A stretch of 64,000 nucleotides of DNA from Methanobrevibacter sp. (GTDB taxonomy: Archaea; Methanobacteriota; Methanobacteria; Methanobacteriales; Methanobacteriaceae), in assembly GCA_017434555.1 (NCBI GenBank), contig JAFRFB010000033.1, forward strand, positions 1 to 64,000. The letters are read 5' to 3'. Both the position numbers and the translations under genes were made by a program. The notes beneath the pieces are model-generated. The model worked only from the letters and a program-made list of their open reading frames with translations, made no database searches and had not been told where the DNA came from. This document shows positions 24,400 to 32,109 of this stretch, piece by piece; the stretch's first letter is position 1; every line of letters begins with the position of its first letter.

Positions 24400-25416
24400 C
24401 TAAATTTCCCATTTTAAAATAGTTTTTCCAAAGTCTGAAATGTAATCCTTATCAAAAGATGTTTTTAAATCATCAATTGATCTGATTTCACAGACATTTG
24501 TAATCAATTTAGACAAATAGCTGAAAAGTTGAGGATTGTTATGAAGGATACTTACAACACCTTCAAAATCTTCTCTTTCAGAGCGGCTGTTTCCCTGTAA
24601 TGTCAATCCCTTTTCAAGAACCATACGCGTATTGACAGGTATAGGGTATTCGCTTACACCAAAGAGGTTGATTGTTCCCTGAGGATTTATCAAATCAATA
24701 ATCTGTTCAATAGCTGACTGGGAAGCAGCAGAACCAACACATTCAAATGCATGATCAATTTTTAAATCCTTTGGAACGTCATGGATTAAATAAATATCAT
24801 CAGCAAATGAAAAAAGGTTCAAGTTTTCAACATGCTTTCCGAAAACTATTACCTTTGATTCAGGACACATCTGCTTTAAAAAAAGTGCTGTAATGTAGCC
24901 CAGATTTCCATCACCCCAAACTCCCAAAACATTTGAAAACGGAGTTTTGAACTCTTTGAACTTCATTATCCCCTGATAGGCAACAGTCATTAATTCTATA
25001 AATGCAGAGACTTTCAAATCAAAATCATCGGGCAGGCTGACCAGCCGGTCATGATTCAAACTGACCAAATCACGTGTAAAACCGTCGAACCCACTTCCTC
25101 TGAATTTAGACAACTTTGAGTAATTGGCACGGTATCCGTCATCCCCCAAAGGAGTGTTCGGTATCATTACAACTTTATCTCCAGGACTAAAGACATTTTC
25201 ATTATCAGAGATGACTTCGCCGACCGCTTCATGAATTAAAGCCATAGGCAATTTTTCTGTTAGAATATCTGAAGGTCTGGAACCCTGATAATACCTTTGG
25301 TCTGCCTGACAAATTGATAAATAGGTTGGCCTTACAATAACGCCGTCTAATTCAACCTCCTCAATAGCTTCCTCAAAGAATTTCGGAGATTTCAATCTAT
25401 AAATAATGTTAATCAT
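24400..25416 (-). CDS. Ribulose-5-phosphate reductase-like (TarJ-type)
   Basis: 338-residue zinc-type alcohol dehydrogenase fold. Near identity to the TarJ pattern: RPTYLSICQADQRYYQGSRP at the start, LPMALIHEAVGEV, VVMIPNTPLGDDG, WGDGNLGYITALFLK (NADPH site), FECVGSAASQSAIEQ and LEKGLTLQGNSRS. TarJ reduces ribulose 5-phosphate to ribitol 5-phosphate. Overlaps the tarI-like gene by 8 bases. Expected to supply CDP-ribitol for a surface glycan; the acceptor is unknown in this organism. Confidence 0.88.
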   Translation of the reverse strand: MINIIYRLKSPKFFEEAIEEVELDGVIVRPTYLSICQADQRYYQGSRPSDILTEKLPMALIHEAVGEVISDNENVFSPGDKVVMIPNTPLGDDGYRANYSKLSKFRGSGFDGFTRDLVSLNHDRLVSLPDDFDLKVSAFIELMTVAYQGIMKFKEFKTPFSNVLGVWGDGNLGYITALFLKQMCPESKVIVFGKHVENLNLFSFADDIYLIHDVPKDLKIDHAFECVGSAASQSAIEQIIDLINPQGTINLFGVSEYPIPVNTRMVLEKGLTLQGNSRSEREDFEGVVSILHNNPQLFSYLSKLITNVCEIRSIDDLKTSFDKDYISDFGKTILKWEI

Positions 25417-26122
25417 GATTTGTTTCCTTTAAAATTGTATTAGCTAATTTCAAGTCATATGGATATGTAATTTTAATATTTGTTATTTCACCCTTTACAA
25501 GATGCACATCTTCACCTTTAAGAACAAATATTTTACATGCATCTGTTAATATATTAGTCTCCTCATCACTTAAACTATTTATTAACTCAGATAACTTATT
25601 GATTTTGAAACTTTGTGGAGTCTGACCCTGATAGAAATTGTCCCTTATCGGAATATCTGATATTATTTTTGAATCAACACTTTCAACAATCGTATCTGTT
25701 GCCGGAACAACGGTATCGCATGCTCCAAATTCTTTTGCAGCATTAATATTGTCCTCAATAATACGATGAGTTACAAATGGACGTACAGAATCATGTGTGA
25801 CGATTACAGTATCATCACCAATTTCAAAATTTTCCTTAATATATTCAATGGAATTTATTAAAGTGTCATTTCTTGTATCACCGCCTTTTAAAACAATGAT
25901 GTTATCGTTTTCACCAAAATACTCCTTTATCAAATTTTTAGTGTGATTAACAAAGCTTTGTGGAGATAAAACAAGAATTTTATCAAATTTAGAATTAATA
26001 ACAAACTTTTCAATCGTGTGGATGATAACCGGCTTATCACCTAAAGTTAAAAACTGTTTAGGTGTATCAGTGCCACCCATTCTTGATCCTATTCCGCCTG
26101 CCAATATAGCTGCAAAAATCAT
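25409..26122 (-). CDS. Ribitol/sugar-alcohol-5-phosphate cytidylyltransferase (TarI/IspD family)
   Basis: 237 residues. IspD-family signature: AAILAGGIGSRMGGTDTPKQFL, VTHDSVRPFVTHRIIEDN, and QGQTPQSFKINKL. IspD proper makes CDP-methylerythritol, but archaea make isoprenoids from mevalonate and the gene is coupled to a tarJ homologue, so ribitol-5-phosphate (CDP-ribitol synthesis) is the better call. SD-type AAAAGGAG precedes it. Operon: methyltransferase, tarI-like, tarJ-like. Confidence 0.88.
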   Translation of the reverse strand: MIFAAILAGGIGSRMGGTDTPKQFLTLGDKPVIIHTIEKFVINSKFDKILVLSPQSFVNHTKNLIKEYFGENDNIIVLKGGDTRNDTLINSIEYIKENFEIGDDTVIVTHDSVRPFVTHRIIEDNINAAKEFGACDTVVPATDTIVESVDSKIISDIPIRDNFYQGQTPQSFKINKLSELINSLSDEETNILTDACKIFVLKGEDVHLVKGEITNIKITYPYDLKLANTILKETNHD

Positions 26123-27202: not shown

Positions 27203-28426
27203 TTATGTAGTGTATTCTGCATTGATTTTTACATAATCATAAGTTAAATCACAACCCCATGCAGTGGCCTCACCATCACCTAAAAACATATTGATATTAA
27301 CAGCAATGTTTTTAGATTGCATTATTTTTTCTGCACGCTCCAGATATGGAGTGTTTTCAAAAGCAAGAATTTCACCTTTGCGCACAAGATCCACTTCATC
27401 ATCTTCATCAGCTATTGCAATAGTGACAACGTTTTGATCAAGTTCACATCCAGAATAACCGATGGCTGAAACAATTCTTCCCCAATTTGGATCTCCTCCA
27501 AAAACAGCTGACTTGAATAACGGGGATGTTACAATAGCTTTTGCAGCGAGTTTTGCATCTTCAAATGATTCTGCACCACAGACATTGGCCTCGATGAATT
27601 TTGAAGCTCCTTCACCGTCACGAGCCATTTTTTTGGCTAGATTAATGCAGAGATGATTTAAGCCTTCCTGGAAATTGGAATCGATTTCACCATCCTTTTC
27701 AACATTAACTCCTGATGCACCGTTTGCCATCAAAAGACAGGTGTCATTGGTACTTTCATCACCGTCTACGACAATCATGTTAAAACTTAAATCAGCAGCT
27801 TTTTTTACTGCTTGTTTAATAGCTTTTTGAGAAATTTCTGCATCAGTTACAATAAATGACAGCATTGTAGCCATATTCGGAGCAATCATACCGCTTCCTT
27901 TAGTAATTCCTGCAATTTTGACAACTTCACCTGAAGTTAACGTGACTTCAACCGCTTCCTCTTTAGGGAAAGTGTCTGTTGTCATTATTGCCTTTGCAGC
28001 AGCCAGTGAATTTTCAGCATCAGACCCTAATTTAGAAATAGATTCATAGGCAACCTTGGATATTATGTCCATAGGCATTTCACGGCCAATAACACCTGTT
28101 GAGCAGATTGCAATTTCTGAAGCAGGTATTTTTAAATCCTTTGAAACCAAGTTAACTAACTCTTCACAGTCTTCAATTCCTTTCTGGCCGGTGAAACAGT
28201 TTGCATTACCACTGTTTACAACAACAGCAGAAACAATACCATTTTTAACAACATTTTTTGTATATCTTACTGATGCTGCAACAACTTTGTTAGTTGTAAA
28301 AACTGCTGAAGCAGTGCTGTTTGGTGCTAAAATTACGCTAACACCGTATTTTCCTTCACGTGCTCCAGATACCTTAACATTTTCTAGGATGGAAAATCCA
28401 CCATCCACTTCACGAATAAATTCCAT
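27203..28426 (-). CDS. argJ: Bifunctional ornithine acetyltransferase / N-acetylglutamate synthase
   Basis: 407 residues. Ntn-type fold with self-cleavage at the conserved Ala-Thr in GSGMIAPNMATMLSFIVTDA; also CSTGVIGREMPM, DGDESTNDTC, and the C-terminal AWGCDLTYDYVKINA. ArgJ moves the acetyl group from ornithine to glutamate, recycling it in arginine synthesis with ArgB. The start is preceded by a GTGATAATATG junction. Intact with family-typical length. Confidence 0.96.
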   Translation of the reverse strand: MEFIREVDGGFSILENVKVSGAREGKYGVSVILAPNSTASAVFTTNKVVAASVRYTKNVVKNGIVSAVVVNSGNANCFTGQKGIEDCEELVNLVSKDLKIPASEIAICSTGVIGREMPMDIISKVAYESISKLGSDAENSLAAAKAIMTTDTFPKEEAVEVTLTSGEVVKIAGITKGSGMIAPNMATMLSFIVTDAEISQKAIKQAVKKAADLSFNMIVVDGDESTNDTCLLMANGASGVNVEKDGEIDSNFQEGLNHLCINLAKKMARDGEGASKFIEANVCGAESFEDAKLAAKAIVTSPLFKSAVFGGDPNWGRIVSAIGYSGCELDQNVVTIAIADEDDEVDLVRKGEILAFENTPYLERAEKIMQSKNIAVNINMFLGDGEATAWGCDLTYDYVKINAEYTT

Positions 28427-28440
28427 ATTATCACAAAAAA

Positions 28441-28710
28441 TTAATCTCTTTTAACCTGTTGATTTGTATAATTTTCATTATAATCAACCATATCTGCTTC
28501 ATAATCAAACTCTACAGATTGCTTATTACTAAGATTTGAAGTCATCTCAACAGTCACATTTTCAACATGAGTAGTATTATTAGTATTATCAGCGGTTGCA
28601 TTATCCTGCTGGCTCATGCTGACTGAAATTCCTATAGCTGAACCAACAACAAATGCAATTAAAGCCAGTATCATTATTAAAGCTATTTTTCCTTCGTTTC
28701 TTCGTGTCAC
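28441..28710 (-). CDS. Small single-pass membrane protein, unknown
   Basis: 89 residues: short basic N-terminus MTRRNEG, one membrane helix (about 8-30), then an outer Asn/Thr/Asp-rich domain with several N-x-T or N-x-S sequons. No motif. It sits downstream of the cyclase-like gene on the same strand. Orientation (N-terminus in) inferred from the positive charges. Confidence 0.6.
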   Translation of the reverse strand: MTRRNEGKIALIMILALIAFVVGSAIGISVSMSQQDNATADNTNNTTHVENVTVEMTSNLSNKQSVEFDYEADMVDYNENYTNQQVKRD

Positions 28711-28737
28711 TGTTATTCCCTTTTTATTTTTGTAAAT

Positions 28738-29940
28738 TTAAGCAATAAAAGCATATATTACTGCAATAATGATTGTTATGAAACTGAATGCTCCCAATCC
28801 AAGTACACATAGCAGATATGTGATTATAAATACGAAAGCGAAAACACCGATTAGTTTTTGTTTTTCATTTTCAAATAAATTAATCAGAGTTCTTGTAAAC
28901 TCTGAAGGTACATTATATGCATATAATCCGTTGGCAAGTTCAAAAACCACTAATGACAGCGGAGATGTAGATTCCAAACTATCTACCAGTTGTGCTCTCT
29001 CACCTGCTTCCCTTCGGCTTCTTCCAACACCTGCCCTGATTTTTGCATCATTGTCAAGTGCAAACCATGCGGCATCCAAACCTGCACGGATAGCCAAGTC
29101 TTTGGATGGGAAACTTGCAATAAAATCATCTCCACCTTCACGGTATCCTTCAAGCTGTCCTCCGCATTCGGTTTCAATGAAATATTTGATATTTGTCATC
29201 AAATCAACCAGCTGGTTCTTACCATGCTTACTGGTGTATGATGTTGAGTCAATCAAATCAACGAATAAATAATTTTTAAACTCAGTAGGCCTTGACTGTG
29301 CCAATTTGAATGGACCGTCAAAGACAAGAGCAAATTCACCGCCGAGTTTTGTAAATGCGACACCAGGGAAATTTCCCAGGTTTTGTCTGTAATTAATTGA
29401 TCTTTCAATTGATGCTGCACCGGTCATTCCCACAGCAGACATCACTTCAATACCCCTTTCAAGACCTATTCCAATAAGTTCAATAGCTACCCTGATTGCA
29501 TCGTTTTTACTGAGCATCTTTGCAACCAGTTCAGTGGAGCTTTTTTCGACAATTTCTCCTTTTTCATTTTCAATAATCTTAACAAATATATTAATTAAAT
29601 TAGATGGATTTGGAAGTTCAACGTAAAAATAACGGTCACTACCCATTACGATATTACTTACAAGAGCATATTCTTCGATTTTGTTTTCCGCAGGTTTGAT
29701 TTCATAGAAATTATATTCCCTAGGAATATTTTCAGCACCAATATCCCTTATAAGATTAGATTCAATACTGTTGGAACTTATTTCTGCTTTTTGCAGTTCA
29801 AACAGAATAGTTTGAGTATAATTAAATAATTCCACATATTCATTCTGCATTGAATCTGTGGGGAAAAATTTAGTCCCTACGCTGATAGGTGTGAGACCTG
29901 TGGTTAGCTTAATTATAGCTTTAGATAAGCTATTAACCAT
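28738..29940 (-). CDS. Membrane protein with class III nucleotidyl cyclase-like domain
   Basis: 400 residues. Region about 220-290 matches the class III cyclase catalytic core: KNYLFVDLIDSTSYTSKHG (first metal Asp) and GGQLEGYREGGDDFIASF (second metal Asp). GGDD also resembles GGDEF. The adenine-selecting Lys is not evident and the transition-state Asn-Arg pair is unclear, so activity is uncertain. Two hydrophobic helices at the C-terminus (about 357-400) anchor it. It overlaps the NYN ribonuclease gene by 8 bases and is two genes from a CpdA-like phosphoesterase. Nucleotide-signalling role inferred. Confidence 0.6.
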   Translation of the reverse strand: MVNSLSKAIIKLTTGLTPISVGTKFFPTDSMQNEYVELFNYTQTILFELQKAEISSNSIESNLIRDIGAENIPREYNFYEIKPAENKIEEYALVSNIVMGSDRYFYVELPNPSNLINIFVKIIENEKGEIVEKSSTELVAKMLSKNDAIRVAIELIGIGLERGIEVMSAVGMTGAASIERSINYRQNLGNFPGVAFTKLGGEFALVFDGPFKLAQSRPTEFKNYLFVDLIDSTSYTSKHGKNQLVDLMTNIKYFIETECGGQLEGYREGGDDFIASFPSKDLAIRAGLDAAWFALDNDAKIRAGVGRSRREAGERAQLVDSLESTSPLSLVVFELANGLYAYNVPSEFTRTLINLFENEKQKLIGVFAFVFIITYLLCVLGLGAFSFITIIIAVIYAFIA

Positions 29941-30958
29941 CTAATTTTCCTCCTTTCTCTAATTCGATTTCGAATTCACCAGGACGTTCTAACAGCATGT
30001 CCGGTTTTACGGAAACGAAAGGAAACTTCCATGACCCAAGTCTGCCCGCAATGGTACTGGCAATATTTCTTGAATTTTTCTTGATGAAAACCTCATCATG
30101 AGTGCTTACACGAACAAGCACGTTGTACGGTGCGGTTTCGGTAACCTCATCAGCCAACATAATGTTCAATTCAAAAGTACCTGGTTTGGTGAACAAATCA
30201 TTACGTACAGCAATTAACGGTTTTTTCTCAAGACCTAACCTGTCTGCTACAGTTACTGAAATATTACCCGCATTTTTAACAGCCAATTTATAGTCTTTAG
30301 GATGGACAAGTACGAAAATAACATAAGGAGCAGCTATTTCAACATCGTCAACCATATCGACAATCTTATTGAACATAGGTATTTTTGAGAAGATATTTTC
30401 TACCTTGGAATTGATATTGTTCTCATCGTCGATACGGATAATAGCCTGTTTTGCAATGTTTAAAGGAGAGATTTCCAATCCTTCCTTACCTGTGTATACT
30501 TCCCATTTCTTGAAGTTCAACTGTTTAATGATTTCATCGGAAATCTTTTGCAGGATATTCTTGTCATGTTTTGGTTTTTTTGGTCTTCCAAAGGTCAATC
30601 TATTGTCTTTTATAACAAATGGAATCCTGAATGAATTAATGTTTTTAAATTCAGCAGCATAATCTCTGAATTTATCATTTGATAAAATCTTTGCTTTTTC
30701 ACTGTAAGCAATTTCTAAAATAAAATGATCAGCATCATTGCCTGCCGGAACTTCCTCTACATTATCACTTTCCAGCAGTTTTAAAAATGCATCCTTATCA
30801 TCTATTTCATGACGAAGTGATGCATCAGCTATAATAACGAACTCATCTTCACTTTCCTCTAATGCCTTAACAGCAGCTAAAATATTAATCATTTGAGGCT
30901 GTGAGTTTTCATTTTTTACATTATGTGCAACATTAGAAGCATCTACAACGACTTTCAT
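29933..30958 (-). CDS. NYN/Zc3h12a-like ribonuclease domain protein with duplicated C-terminal module
   Basis: 341 residues. The N-terminal 115 residues show a PIN-like nuclease core: VVVDASNVAHN, VIIADASLRHEIDD, and PAGNDADHFILEIAY with AKILSNDKFRDY, giving the acidic cluster of Zc3h12a/NYN RNases. The C-terminal half contains two related stretches of about 65 residues (about 200-265 and 270-335) sharing DRLG/GRLG, a basic FVS/IAVR strand and PGxFE. Known family proteins cleave RNA; this target is unknown. ATG is 8 bases before the end of the cyclase-like gene. Good GGTGATAT site. Confidence 0.75.
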   Translation of the reverse strand: MKVVVDASNVAHNVKNENSQPQMINILAAVKALEESEDEFVIIADASLRHEIDDKDAFLKLLESDNVEEVPAGNDADHFILEIAYSEKAKILSNDKFRDYAAEFKNINSFRIPFVIKDNRLTFGRPKKPKHDKNILQKISDEIIKQLNFKKWEVYTGKEGLEISPLNIAKQAIIRIDDENNINSKVENIFSKIPMFNKIVDMVDDVEIAAPYVIFVLVHPKDYKLAVKNAGNISVTVADRLGLEKKPLIAVRNDLFTKPGTFELNIMLADEVTETAPYNVLVRVSTHDEVFIKKNSRNIASTIAGRLGSWKFPFVSVKPDMLLERPGEFEIELEKGGKLDG

Positions 30959-31011
30959 AATATCACCAATCTAATTAAATAATTTATTATATATTAACTT
31001 TACTAATATAT

Positions 31012-31752
31012 TTAATGTTTTCTTTGAAATTTACCAAATAGGAATTTTTCTCCACCGACATTATTCAAAAATATCTCAATCGTGTCCTCATCAATAATAT
31101 AAACATTATATGAATTGCCTATTTTGCCTCTCAACTTATTTGAACAGAGAGACCCTGCATTGACAACAACGGTTTCATTGATTTTCCAAACGTGAGGAAC
31201 ATGCTTATGTCCGCATAAAATCAAATCAACTTCATGCGTTGTTAAAATCTTTAGGATTTCACCTGCATCTGATAAAATATTGCGTTCACGTCCGGTATCC
31301 GGTATTGGAATAACATGATGGTGAAGCGCAACGATTGAAGAGAGGTCATTGATTACGCACTGATCCAGCTGATGTTCCATCCACATACGCTGAGGCTTGC
31401 CGACATGCCCCCAATCCTCATCAGGAGAACTGCTGTCAAGACCAATTACTGTGAAATCATTTTCTTTGGTTAATTTCCAGCTGTTTTCACCGATTAACTC
31501 TTCAAAGCTTTGATGGCCTAAATTACGTGCATCATGGTTTCCCGGAACTGCAAACAACGGAGCTTCAAACATGTCCAGGTATTTTACAGCCTGCTGAAAT
31601 TCCCTGTAATAACCGTCATTTGTTAAATCACCGGTTAAAATAATCATGTCCGGCTTTAAATTATTGATTTCAGCCACAGCTTCCATAAAAACCTCTTCAT
31701 CAAAAGCTGTGTCACTTATATGTAAATCTGAGATATGAGCAATGATTGTCAT
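31012..31752 (-). CDS. Calcineurin-like metallophosphoesterase (Icc/CpdA type)
   Basis: 246 residues with all five metal-binding blocks: AHISDLHISD, ILTGDLTNDG, AVPGNHDAR, ALHHHVIP and CGHKHVPH, each in order. The family includes cyclic-nucleotide phosphodiesterases such as CpdA and broader phosphoesterases. Located 53 nt upstream of the NYN gene on the same strand, so possibly linked to the cyclase-like protein; substrate unproved. Confidence 0.85.
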   Translation of the reverse strand: MTIIAHISDLHISDTAFDEEVFMEAVAEINNLKPDMIILTGDLTNDGYYREFQQAVKYLDMFEAPLFAVPGNHDARNLGHQSFEELIGENSWKLTKENDFTVIGLDSSSPDEDWGHVGKPQRMWMEHQLDQCVINDLSSIVALHHHVIPIPDTGRERNILSDAGEILKILTTHEVDLILCGHKHVPHVWKINETVVVNAGSLCSNKLRGKIGNSYNVYIIDEDTIEIFLNNVGGEKFLFGKFQRKH

Positions 31753-31758
31753 AATTAT

Positions 31759-32109
31759 CTATTGAGCCAATTTCATAATAGCTTCAGCAAGGTCTCCTTT
31801 ACATTCCTCTAAAGCTTGCCTTGCAACATCTTCAGAAACGTTAGCTTGATTAGCTACCATTTCAACGTCTTCATCAGGAATTTCAACTTCATAATCAAGC
31901 TCCACTTCACGAGCTTTACCTTCAACCTGATAAGTTTCCTGACCCATTACATTCATTAAACTTACGCTGGGATTATCAATGATTAATTCCTTATCTTCAA
32001 AACGGATAATGACTTCAGTAACGCCGTCAAGGTCTTCCATTTTCATACCCATTTTTTTCATCTGTCTTTCCATTTGCTTCATTTGCTTTTTATTCATACC
32101 AGGTATCAT
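31759..32109 (-). CDS. Nascent polypeptide-associated complex protein (archaeal NAC)
   Basis: 116 residues. NAC domain beginning MIPGMNKKQMKQMERQMKK (positively charged ribosome-binding start), VTEVIIRFEDKELIIDNPSV and YQVEGKA, then a C-terminal UBA helix EDVARQALEECKGDLAEAIMKLAQ. Archaeal NAC forms a homodimer at the ribosome exit tunnel. The phosphoesterase gene begins 6 nt downstream, so the two are probably cotranscribed. Confidence 0.95.
   Translation of the reverse strand: MIPGMNKKQMKQMERQMKKMGMKMEDLDGVTEVIIRFEDKELIIDNPSVSLMNVMGQETYQVEGKAREVELDYEVEIPDEDVEMVANQANVSEDVARQALEECKGDLAEAIMKLAQ

Follow-up and report, generated by a model that had tools for sequence, protein, structure and literature searches.

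A conserved gene pair encoding an NYN ribonuclease and a cyclase-fold protein in methanogenic archaea

The window analysed was a 64,000-nucleotide (nt) stretch of a Methanobrevibacter sp. genome (assembly GCA_017434555.1, contig JAFRFB010000033.1, positions 1 to 64,000). A first-pass annotation, made from the letters alone, had singled out positions 28,441–32,109 as a possible signalling unit of three genes: a cyclase-like membrane protein, an NYN-type ribonuclease (RNase) and a CpdA-like phosphoesterase. Compared across the phylum, the genes for the cyclase-fold protein (CYC) and the NYN RNase looked like core genes that are inherited vertically as a pair. The favoured reading, held at a probability of about 0.42, is that the two products constitute a stoichiometric membrane-tethered RNase, in which CYC would sense or turn over a nucleoside triphosphate (NTP) and NYN would cut RNA. 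We infer that they form a complex, that the RNase is placed at the membrane, that a nucleotide controls it and that RNA is its substrate. The pair and its parts are as follows (aa, amino acids).

29933-30958, minus strand: NYN (Regnase/Zc3h12a-type) RNase, 341 aa, PF11977
29941-29959, minus strand: CYC ribosome-binding site (aaaggagg), within the last codons of the NYN gene
28738-29940, minus strand: cyclase-fold protein (CYC), 400 aa
29305-29640, minus strand: CYC palm domain 1, diverged (residues 101-212), with invariant GMT-AA--ER (171-180) and KLG-E (198-202)
28906-29304, minus strand: CYC palm domain 2 (residues 213-345), with D228, S232, T233, GGDD (269-272) and R309/R310

The NYN ribonuclease and the cyclase-fold protein

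The open reading frames (ORFs) lay where the first-pass annotation had placed them, including the 8-nt overlap between the NYN and CYC frames. Its NYN assignment was borne out by a PF11977 match of 1e-16 (61.5 bits against a cut-off of 23), and PF11977 was matched by 22/22 members of the family. The PIN-like NYN domain occupied residues 1–122. D6, N9, D77 and D95 were invariant and aligned with the catalytic residues of ZC3H12B. The closest proteins in sequence and fold were ZC3H12A/B/C and KHNYN. The protein is, by its sequence, a Regnase-type RNase whose predicted catalytic residues are intact.

The C-terminal part of NYN was a tandem repeat of residues ~205–271 and ~272–341, with an internal duplication E-value of 9.3e-12. 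This region (residues 205–341, positions 29936-30346) had a beta-alpha-alpha-beta-beta repeat and was highly conserved in all homologues, with 71% mean column identity. No known family was matched by the repeat in Pfam and PDB profile searches. KH domains were considered here, since the region looked KH-like by eye, and were rejected when the same searches gave no match. The repeat is possibly the RNA-binding or the CYC-binding part of the protein. NYN therefore resembles Regnase/ZC3H12 and KHNYN, the closest solved folds, in its domain and its D, N, D, D active site, and differs from them in having no zinc finger, no KH match and a C-terminal repeat outside the known families.

CYC was composed of an N-terminal alpha/beta part (residues 1–100), palm domain 1 (~101–212), palm domain 2 (~213–345) and a C-terminal transmembrane hairpin of two long hydrophobic helices (360–379 and 383–399). 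A single-sequence Pfam search with CYC gave no match. The profile of 34 CYC homologues matched the class III adenylyl cyclase Rv1900c over residues 219–316 (E 0.0056). An AlphaFold2 (AF2) model built from the alignment had a mean predicted local distance difference test score (pLDDT) of 85 and a predicted template modelling score (pTM) of 0.76. The model showed two consecutive palm domains followed by the helical hairpin; residues 223–343 had the order beta-alpha-alpha-beta-beta-alpha-beta-alpha-beta-beta, and residues 103–206 were similar. Class III cyclases headed the Foldseek comparison of the model with the PDB: the tandem cyclase AC9 (3.7e-7), human sAC, 6yii, Rv1900c (1.8e-5) and Ma1120, with 6yii, a tandem cyclase-like ATP-binding protein of P. 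aeruginosa, at rank 14. GTP cyclohydrolase III (2qv6) stood below the class III cyclases in the list, at 1.5e-4. A viral fold library gave no match below 0.001. The predicted fold (AF2, Foldseek) was the cyclase palm on which the first-pass annotation had made its reading depend.

The profiles of the N-terminal and C-terminal halves of CYC matched one another (hhalign probability 96.8, E 2.8e-10), and column-shuffled controls of the same comparison gave E 0.17–0.82. On the AF2 model, the Foldseek matches and this half-to-half relatedness, CYC is predicted to consist of two palm domains in tandem, carried by a membrane hairpin. The first-pass annotation had recognised the second palm as a single cyclase domain and had overlooked the first. 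A third palm copy in the N-terminal 100 residues was unsupported (E 0.022 and 0.22).

The active-site residues were examined over 81 distinct CYC homologues. D228, S232, T233, G269, G270, D271, D272 and R309 of domain 2 were invariant in 81/81, as were G171, M172, T173, E179, R180, K198 and E202 of domain 1. Both metal aspartates that had been claimed for CYC, D228 and D271, were among them, and D272 in addition; in domain 1 the metal-site Asp was replaced. Since D228, D271, D272 and the residues around them never vary, domain 2 is predicted to retain the class III metal site. The palm fold, the two metal aspartates, and the D-x3-ST and G-D spacing are shared with class III adenylyl cyclases (tandem AC9, human sAC and Rv1900c), and the tandem pseudo-dimer arrangement is common to CYC and the tandem members of that class.

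Other hallmarks of class III cyclases were lacking in CYC. The purine-specifying Lys/Asp pair was missing in both domains. In domain 1 the corresponding position lacked an invariant Lys, K133 being off-register and found in 59/81 homologues; domain 2 had R267. No transition-state Asn-x3-Arg was conserved in either domain. The Lys and Asn-Arg residues that the first-pass annotation had reported as missing were thus indeed absent. The beta4-beta5 arm was absent as well, strand 4 leading directly to helix 4 in both domains (167–171 to 174 and 301–306 to 309). PF00211 was over its cut-off in 0/34 CYC members. Having neither the Lys/Asp pair nor the Asn/Arg pair nor the arm in either domain, CYC stands outside class III proper.

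GTP cyclohydrolase III (MJ0145, 2qv6) was tried as the family of CYC, as suggested by the GGD motif, the missing arm and the Foldseek match. It is likewise archaeal and has tandem palm domains, a GGD[DN] motif and no arm. The hhalign comparison of the two was non-significant (E 0.0094–0.02), PF05165 (GTP cyclohydrolase III) was not matched by CYC in Pfam, and GTP cyclohydrolase III has no membrane anchor. A true GTP cyclohydrolase III gene (PF05165) was located elsewhere in the same genome (G000:C105:19530-20249). CYC belongs to the palm superfamily, yet by these tests it is neither a class III cyclase proper nor a GTP cyclohydrolase III.

Conservation of the pair and its neighbours

The distribution of the pair was investigated in 152 genomes of the phylum from 20 genera, 91 of them of good quality. 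CYC was present in 148/152 genomes and NYN in 146/152, and the two co-occurred in 146/152. Both were found in 90/91 good-quality genomes and in 20/20 genera. NYN and CYC were on the same strand in 65/65 measured loci, and 57/65 were within -8 to +1 nt of each other: 48 loci overlapped (usually by 1–8 nt), 9 were spaced by 0–1 nt, 7 by 31–300 nt and 1 by >300 nt. The CYC ribosome-binding site was inside the NYN gene in many distant relatives, with a larger gap in some. Overlap with an embedded ribosome-binding site is the usual signature of stoichiometric partners. Between distant genera, NYN and CYC had identities similar to those of the core genes NAC and ArgJ, which were retained upstream and downstream, respectively, in most genera. 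It is this near-universal presence, same-strand linkage, retention of neighbours and core-like identity that give the pair its core, vertically inherited pattern.

The two genes were adjacent in all but three of the genomes that had both. These exceptions, found by eye in a comparison of two location tables, were G129, G132 and, as an undecided case, G027, where both genes were at contig ends. CYC in G132 (L169 3260-5772) comes after a small GTPase-like gene and another short gene, and two ORFs lie between NYN and CYC in G129 (L170 1460-3491).

The block 27203-32109, all on the minus strand, has the transcription order NAC, metallophosphoesterase (MPE), NYN, CYC, small membrane protein and ArgJ. 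The remaining genes are listed below; those for NAC and the small membrane protein also lie in the singled-out interval and had gone unnamed in the first-pass annotation.

31759-32109, minus strand: archaeal nascent polypeptide-associated complex protein (NAC), TIGR00264, conserved upstream neighbour
31012-31752, minus strand: calcineurin-like metallophosphoesterase (MPE), PF00149, a neighbour and non-constant member of the pair's surroundings
28441-28710, minus strand: small membrane protein, 89 aa, GTG start, in the same place in many, not all, relatives
27203-28426, minus strand: ArgJ

The phosphoesterase proved real (PF00149, 1.7e-21). Its CpdA label failed, with 66.7 bits on the curated CpdA model against a cut-off of 225, which indicates superfamily resemblance only. 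Leftward transcription places MPE upstream, before NYN, not after the pair as had been stated. MPE was the upstream neighbour of NYN in many genera, deep ones included, at a spacing of 9 to >1,200 nt, and by spacing it was joined to NAC rather than to NYN. Genus g9 and part of g12 had no MPE at the locus, and the genomes searched there contained weak superfamily matches only. A full-strength match was located elsewhere in G114, G117 and G124, and a fragmentary one elsewhere in g13. The NYN-CYC pair persisted in all genomes with MPE missing or relocated. Of the predicted conserved order, the cyclase-NYN link was upheld and the place of the phosphoesterase was not.

PF00211 cyclases and PF00027 cyclic nucleotide-binding domains were found in 0/31 relatives; the same searches in control genomes gave PF00211 in 5/14 and PF00027 in 10/14. 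Classical cyclic AMP (cAMP) signalling is therefore unlikely in these relatives.

Outside the phylum, CYC was found in 0/200 genomes of the phylum of G153 and in 0/23 of that of G152, both being empty searches without a positive control. The NYN domain occurred in only 3/200 genomes of the former. Stand-alone NYN domains were observed in a few genomes of another archaeal phylum (L147-L150), sharing 33–39% identity across the NYN part; the sample of that phylum contained no match to CYC. A PF11977 gene is also present in M. jannaschii. NYN and CYC had no relatives in viral contigs, NYN had none in plasmids, and PADLOC gave no family match for either. A defence system, including the nucleotide-signalling kinds CBASS, type III CRISPR and mCpol, was rejected on these negative searches together with the universal presence of the pair in the phylum, since such a vertical distribution is unlike that of the patchy defence systems.

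Several side observations were made in the window. The small membrane protein had an Asn/Thr-rich tail and low sequence conservation, and lay between CYC and ArgJ in many genera. A bacterial-type promoter scan gave a result at chance level. The product of 25409-26122 (minus strand) resembled D-ribitol-5-phosphate cytidylyltransferase (378.7 bits against a cut-off of 166), and that of the adjoining 24400-25416 (minus strand) resembled a zinc-type alcohol dehydrogenase. The two form a TarI/TarJ-like pair for CDP-ribitol, which is of interest for archaeal wall polymers.

Proposed mechanism and competing explanations

In the favoured reading, CYC would be held in the membrane by its C-terminal hairpin, with the two palm domains facing the cytoplasm. 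By analogy with C1/C2 of tandem class III cyclases, the palm domains probably pair within one chain and would form a single metal-nucleotide site. This composite site would take its aspartates from domain 2 and the invariant R180, K198 and E202 from domain 1. NTP binding or turnover at the site would control the partner NYN RNase, or position it at the membrane, and NYN would cut RNA through its predicted metal site. The job may be a routine one, such as mRNA or tRNA turnover near ribosomes and the membrane. The role of the pair is probably housekeeping rather than defence, and probably not cAMP signalling.

Three observations weigh against this reading or parts of it. In genus g13, NYN and CYC lay at separate places in G132 and at a distance of 2.5 kb in G129, so adjacency of the pair cannot be an absolute requirement. 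Foldseek alignments spanning the whole CYC tandem had a root-mean-square deviation near 20 Å, which leaves the composite site a proposal. Palm domain 1 also retains acidic residues of its own, E108 and E137, and two separate sites are therefore possible.

CYC could instead make a diffusible signal (a cyclic mono-, di- or oligonucleotide, or an unusual product) that switches on NYN, following type III CRISPR/CBASS logic. The invariant metal aspartates and GGDD are hard to explain without catalysis, the palm fold is common to CYC and cyclases, and the pairing with an RNase gene is strict. However, the class III substrate residues, transition-state residues and arm are missing, neither PF00027 receptors nor PF00211 cyclases were found in the 31 relatives, and no nucleotide sensor domain is recognised in NYN, whose C-terminal repeat matches nothing. 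The universal vertical distribution also differs from that of patchy defence systems, and a signal synthase is considered unlikely. The same missing residues, the conserved hairpin and the presence of 6yii among the Foldseek matches would suit a catalytically dead pseudo-cyclase, a scaffold tethering NYN to the membrane and possibly binding a nucleotide structurally, as 6yii does. Dead enzymes tend to lose their metal ligands, yet D228, D271 and D272 were kept in every homologue, and this explanation too is rather doubtful.

If CYC were an NTP-acting hydrolase or cyclohydrolase of the GTP cyclohydrolase III type, only loosely linked to NYN, this would account for the tandem palms, the 2qv6 match and the arm absent from both proteins. 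This explanation is quite improbable given the non-significant profile comparison and the separate GTP cyclohydrolase III gene of the same genome. Least credence of all is given to the three-gene second-messenger unit proposed by the first-pass annotation, in which CYC makes the signal, MPE degrades it and NYN responds. The upstream position of MPE in many genera speaks for it. The pair persists in genera where MPE is lost or moved, which leaves the three-part unit unsupported, and both the spacing that ties MPE to NAC and the empty PF00211/PF00027 searches count against it.

A bolder version of catalysis was also considered. CYC would be an active enzyme with a product new to class III cyclases that directly switches NYN. 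The pair would then be a nucleotide-to-RNase circuit belonging to the vertically inherited core of methanogens, and it may be an ancestor of, or a parallel to, the palm-polymerase/RNase logic of type III CRISPR. This is distinctly unlikely.

Known systems and significance

A gene cluster like the present pair was reported in 2025: cluster D of pseudomurein archaea (Methanobacteriales/Methanopyrales), with OG0001213 as an NYN ribonuclease and OG0001214 as a nucleotide cyclase (PMC11915815). Cluster D came from a search for genes of pseudomurein archaea, carried InterPro labels only and was judged probably unrelated to pseudomurein (PMC11915815). Its syntenic NYN ribonuclease and polytopic nucleotide cyclase match the present pair by annotation, order, lineage and distribution. 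The tandem palm domains, the missing cyclase residues, the overlap and the NAC and MPE neighbours are not part of that account (PMC11915815). The literature search on the NAC operon or archaeal NYN-cyclase pairs found nothing beyond it. The pair, put forward as undescribed by the first-pass annotation, is thus already in print, without an assigned function; the domain architecture and the coupling are added here.

A CRISPR-associated NYN RNase of Bacteroides fragilis is encoded beside Cas10 and is proposed to trim crRNA (PMC11346440). Both systems place an NYN RNase gene next to one for a palm-fold protein, which is the nucleotide-making Cas10 in B. fragilis (PMC11346440). Unlike that system, the present locus has no Cas context, is universal and is vertically inherited.

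Little is known of how RNA is degraded, and how this is controlled, in Methanobacteriales, the group to which the main gut methanogens of humans and ruminants belong. That nearly all genomes of the phylum couple an RNase to a membrane protein with a nucleotide-binding fold marks a clear and testable gap. A catalytic CYC would represent a cyclase-fold enzyme whose active-site layout is new. A non-catalytic CYC would serve an RNase as its membrane anchor, either nucleotide-gated or structural, in a role comparable to the way bacterial RNase E or RNase Y is anchored to the membrane.

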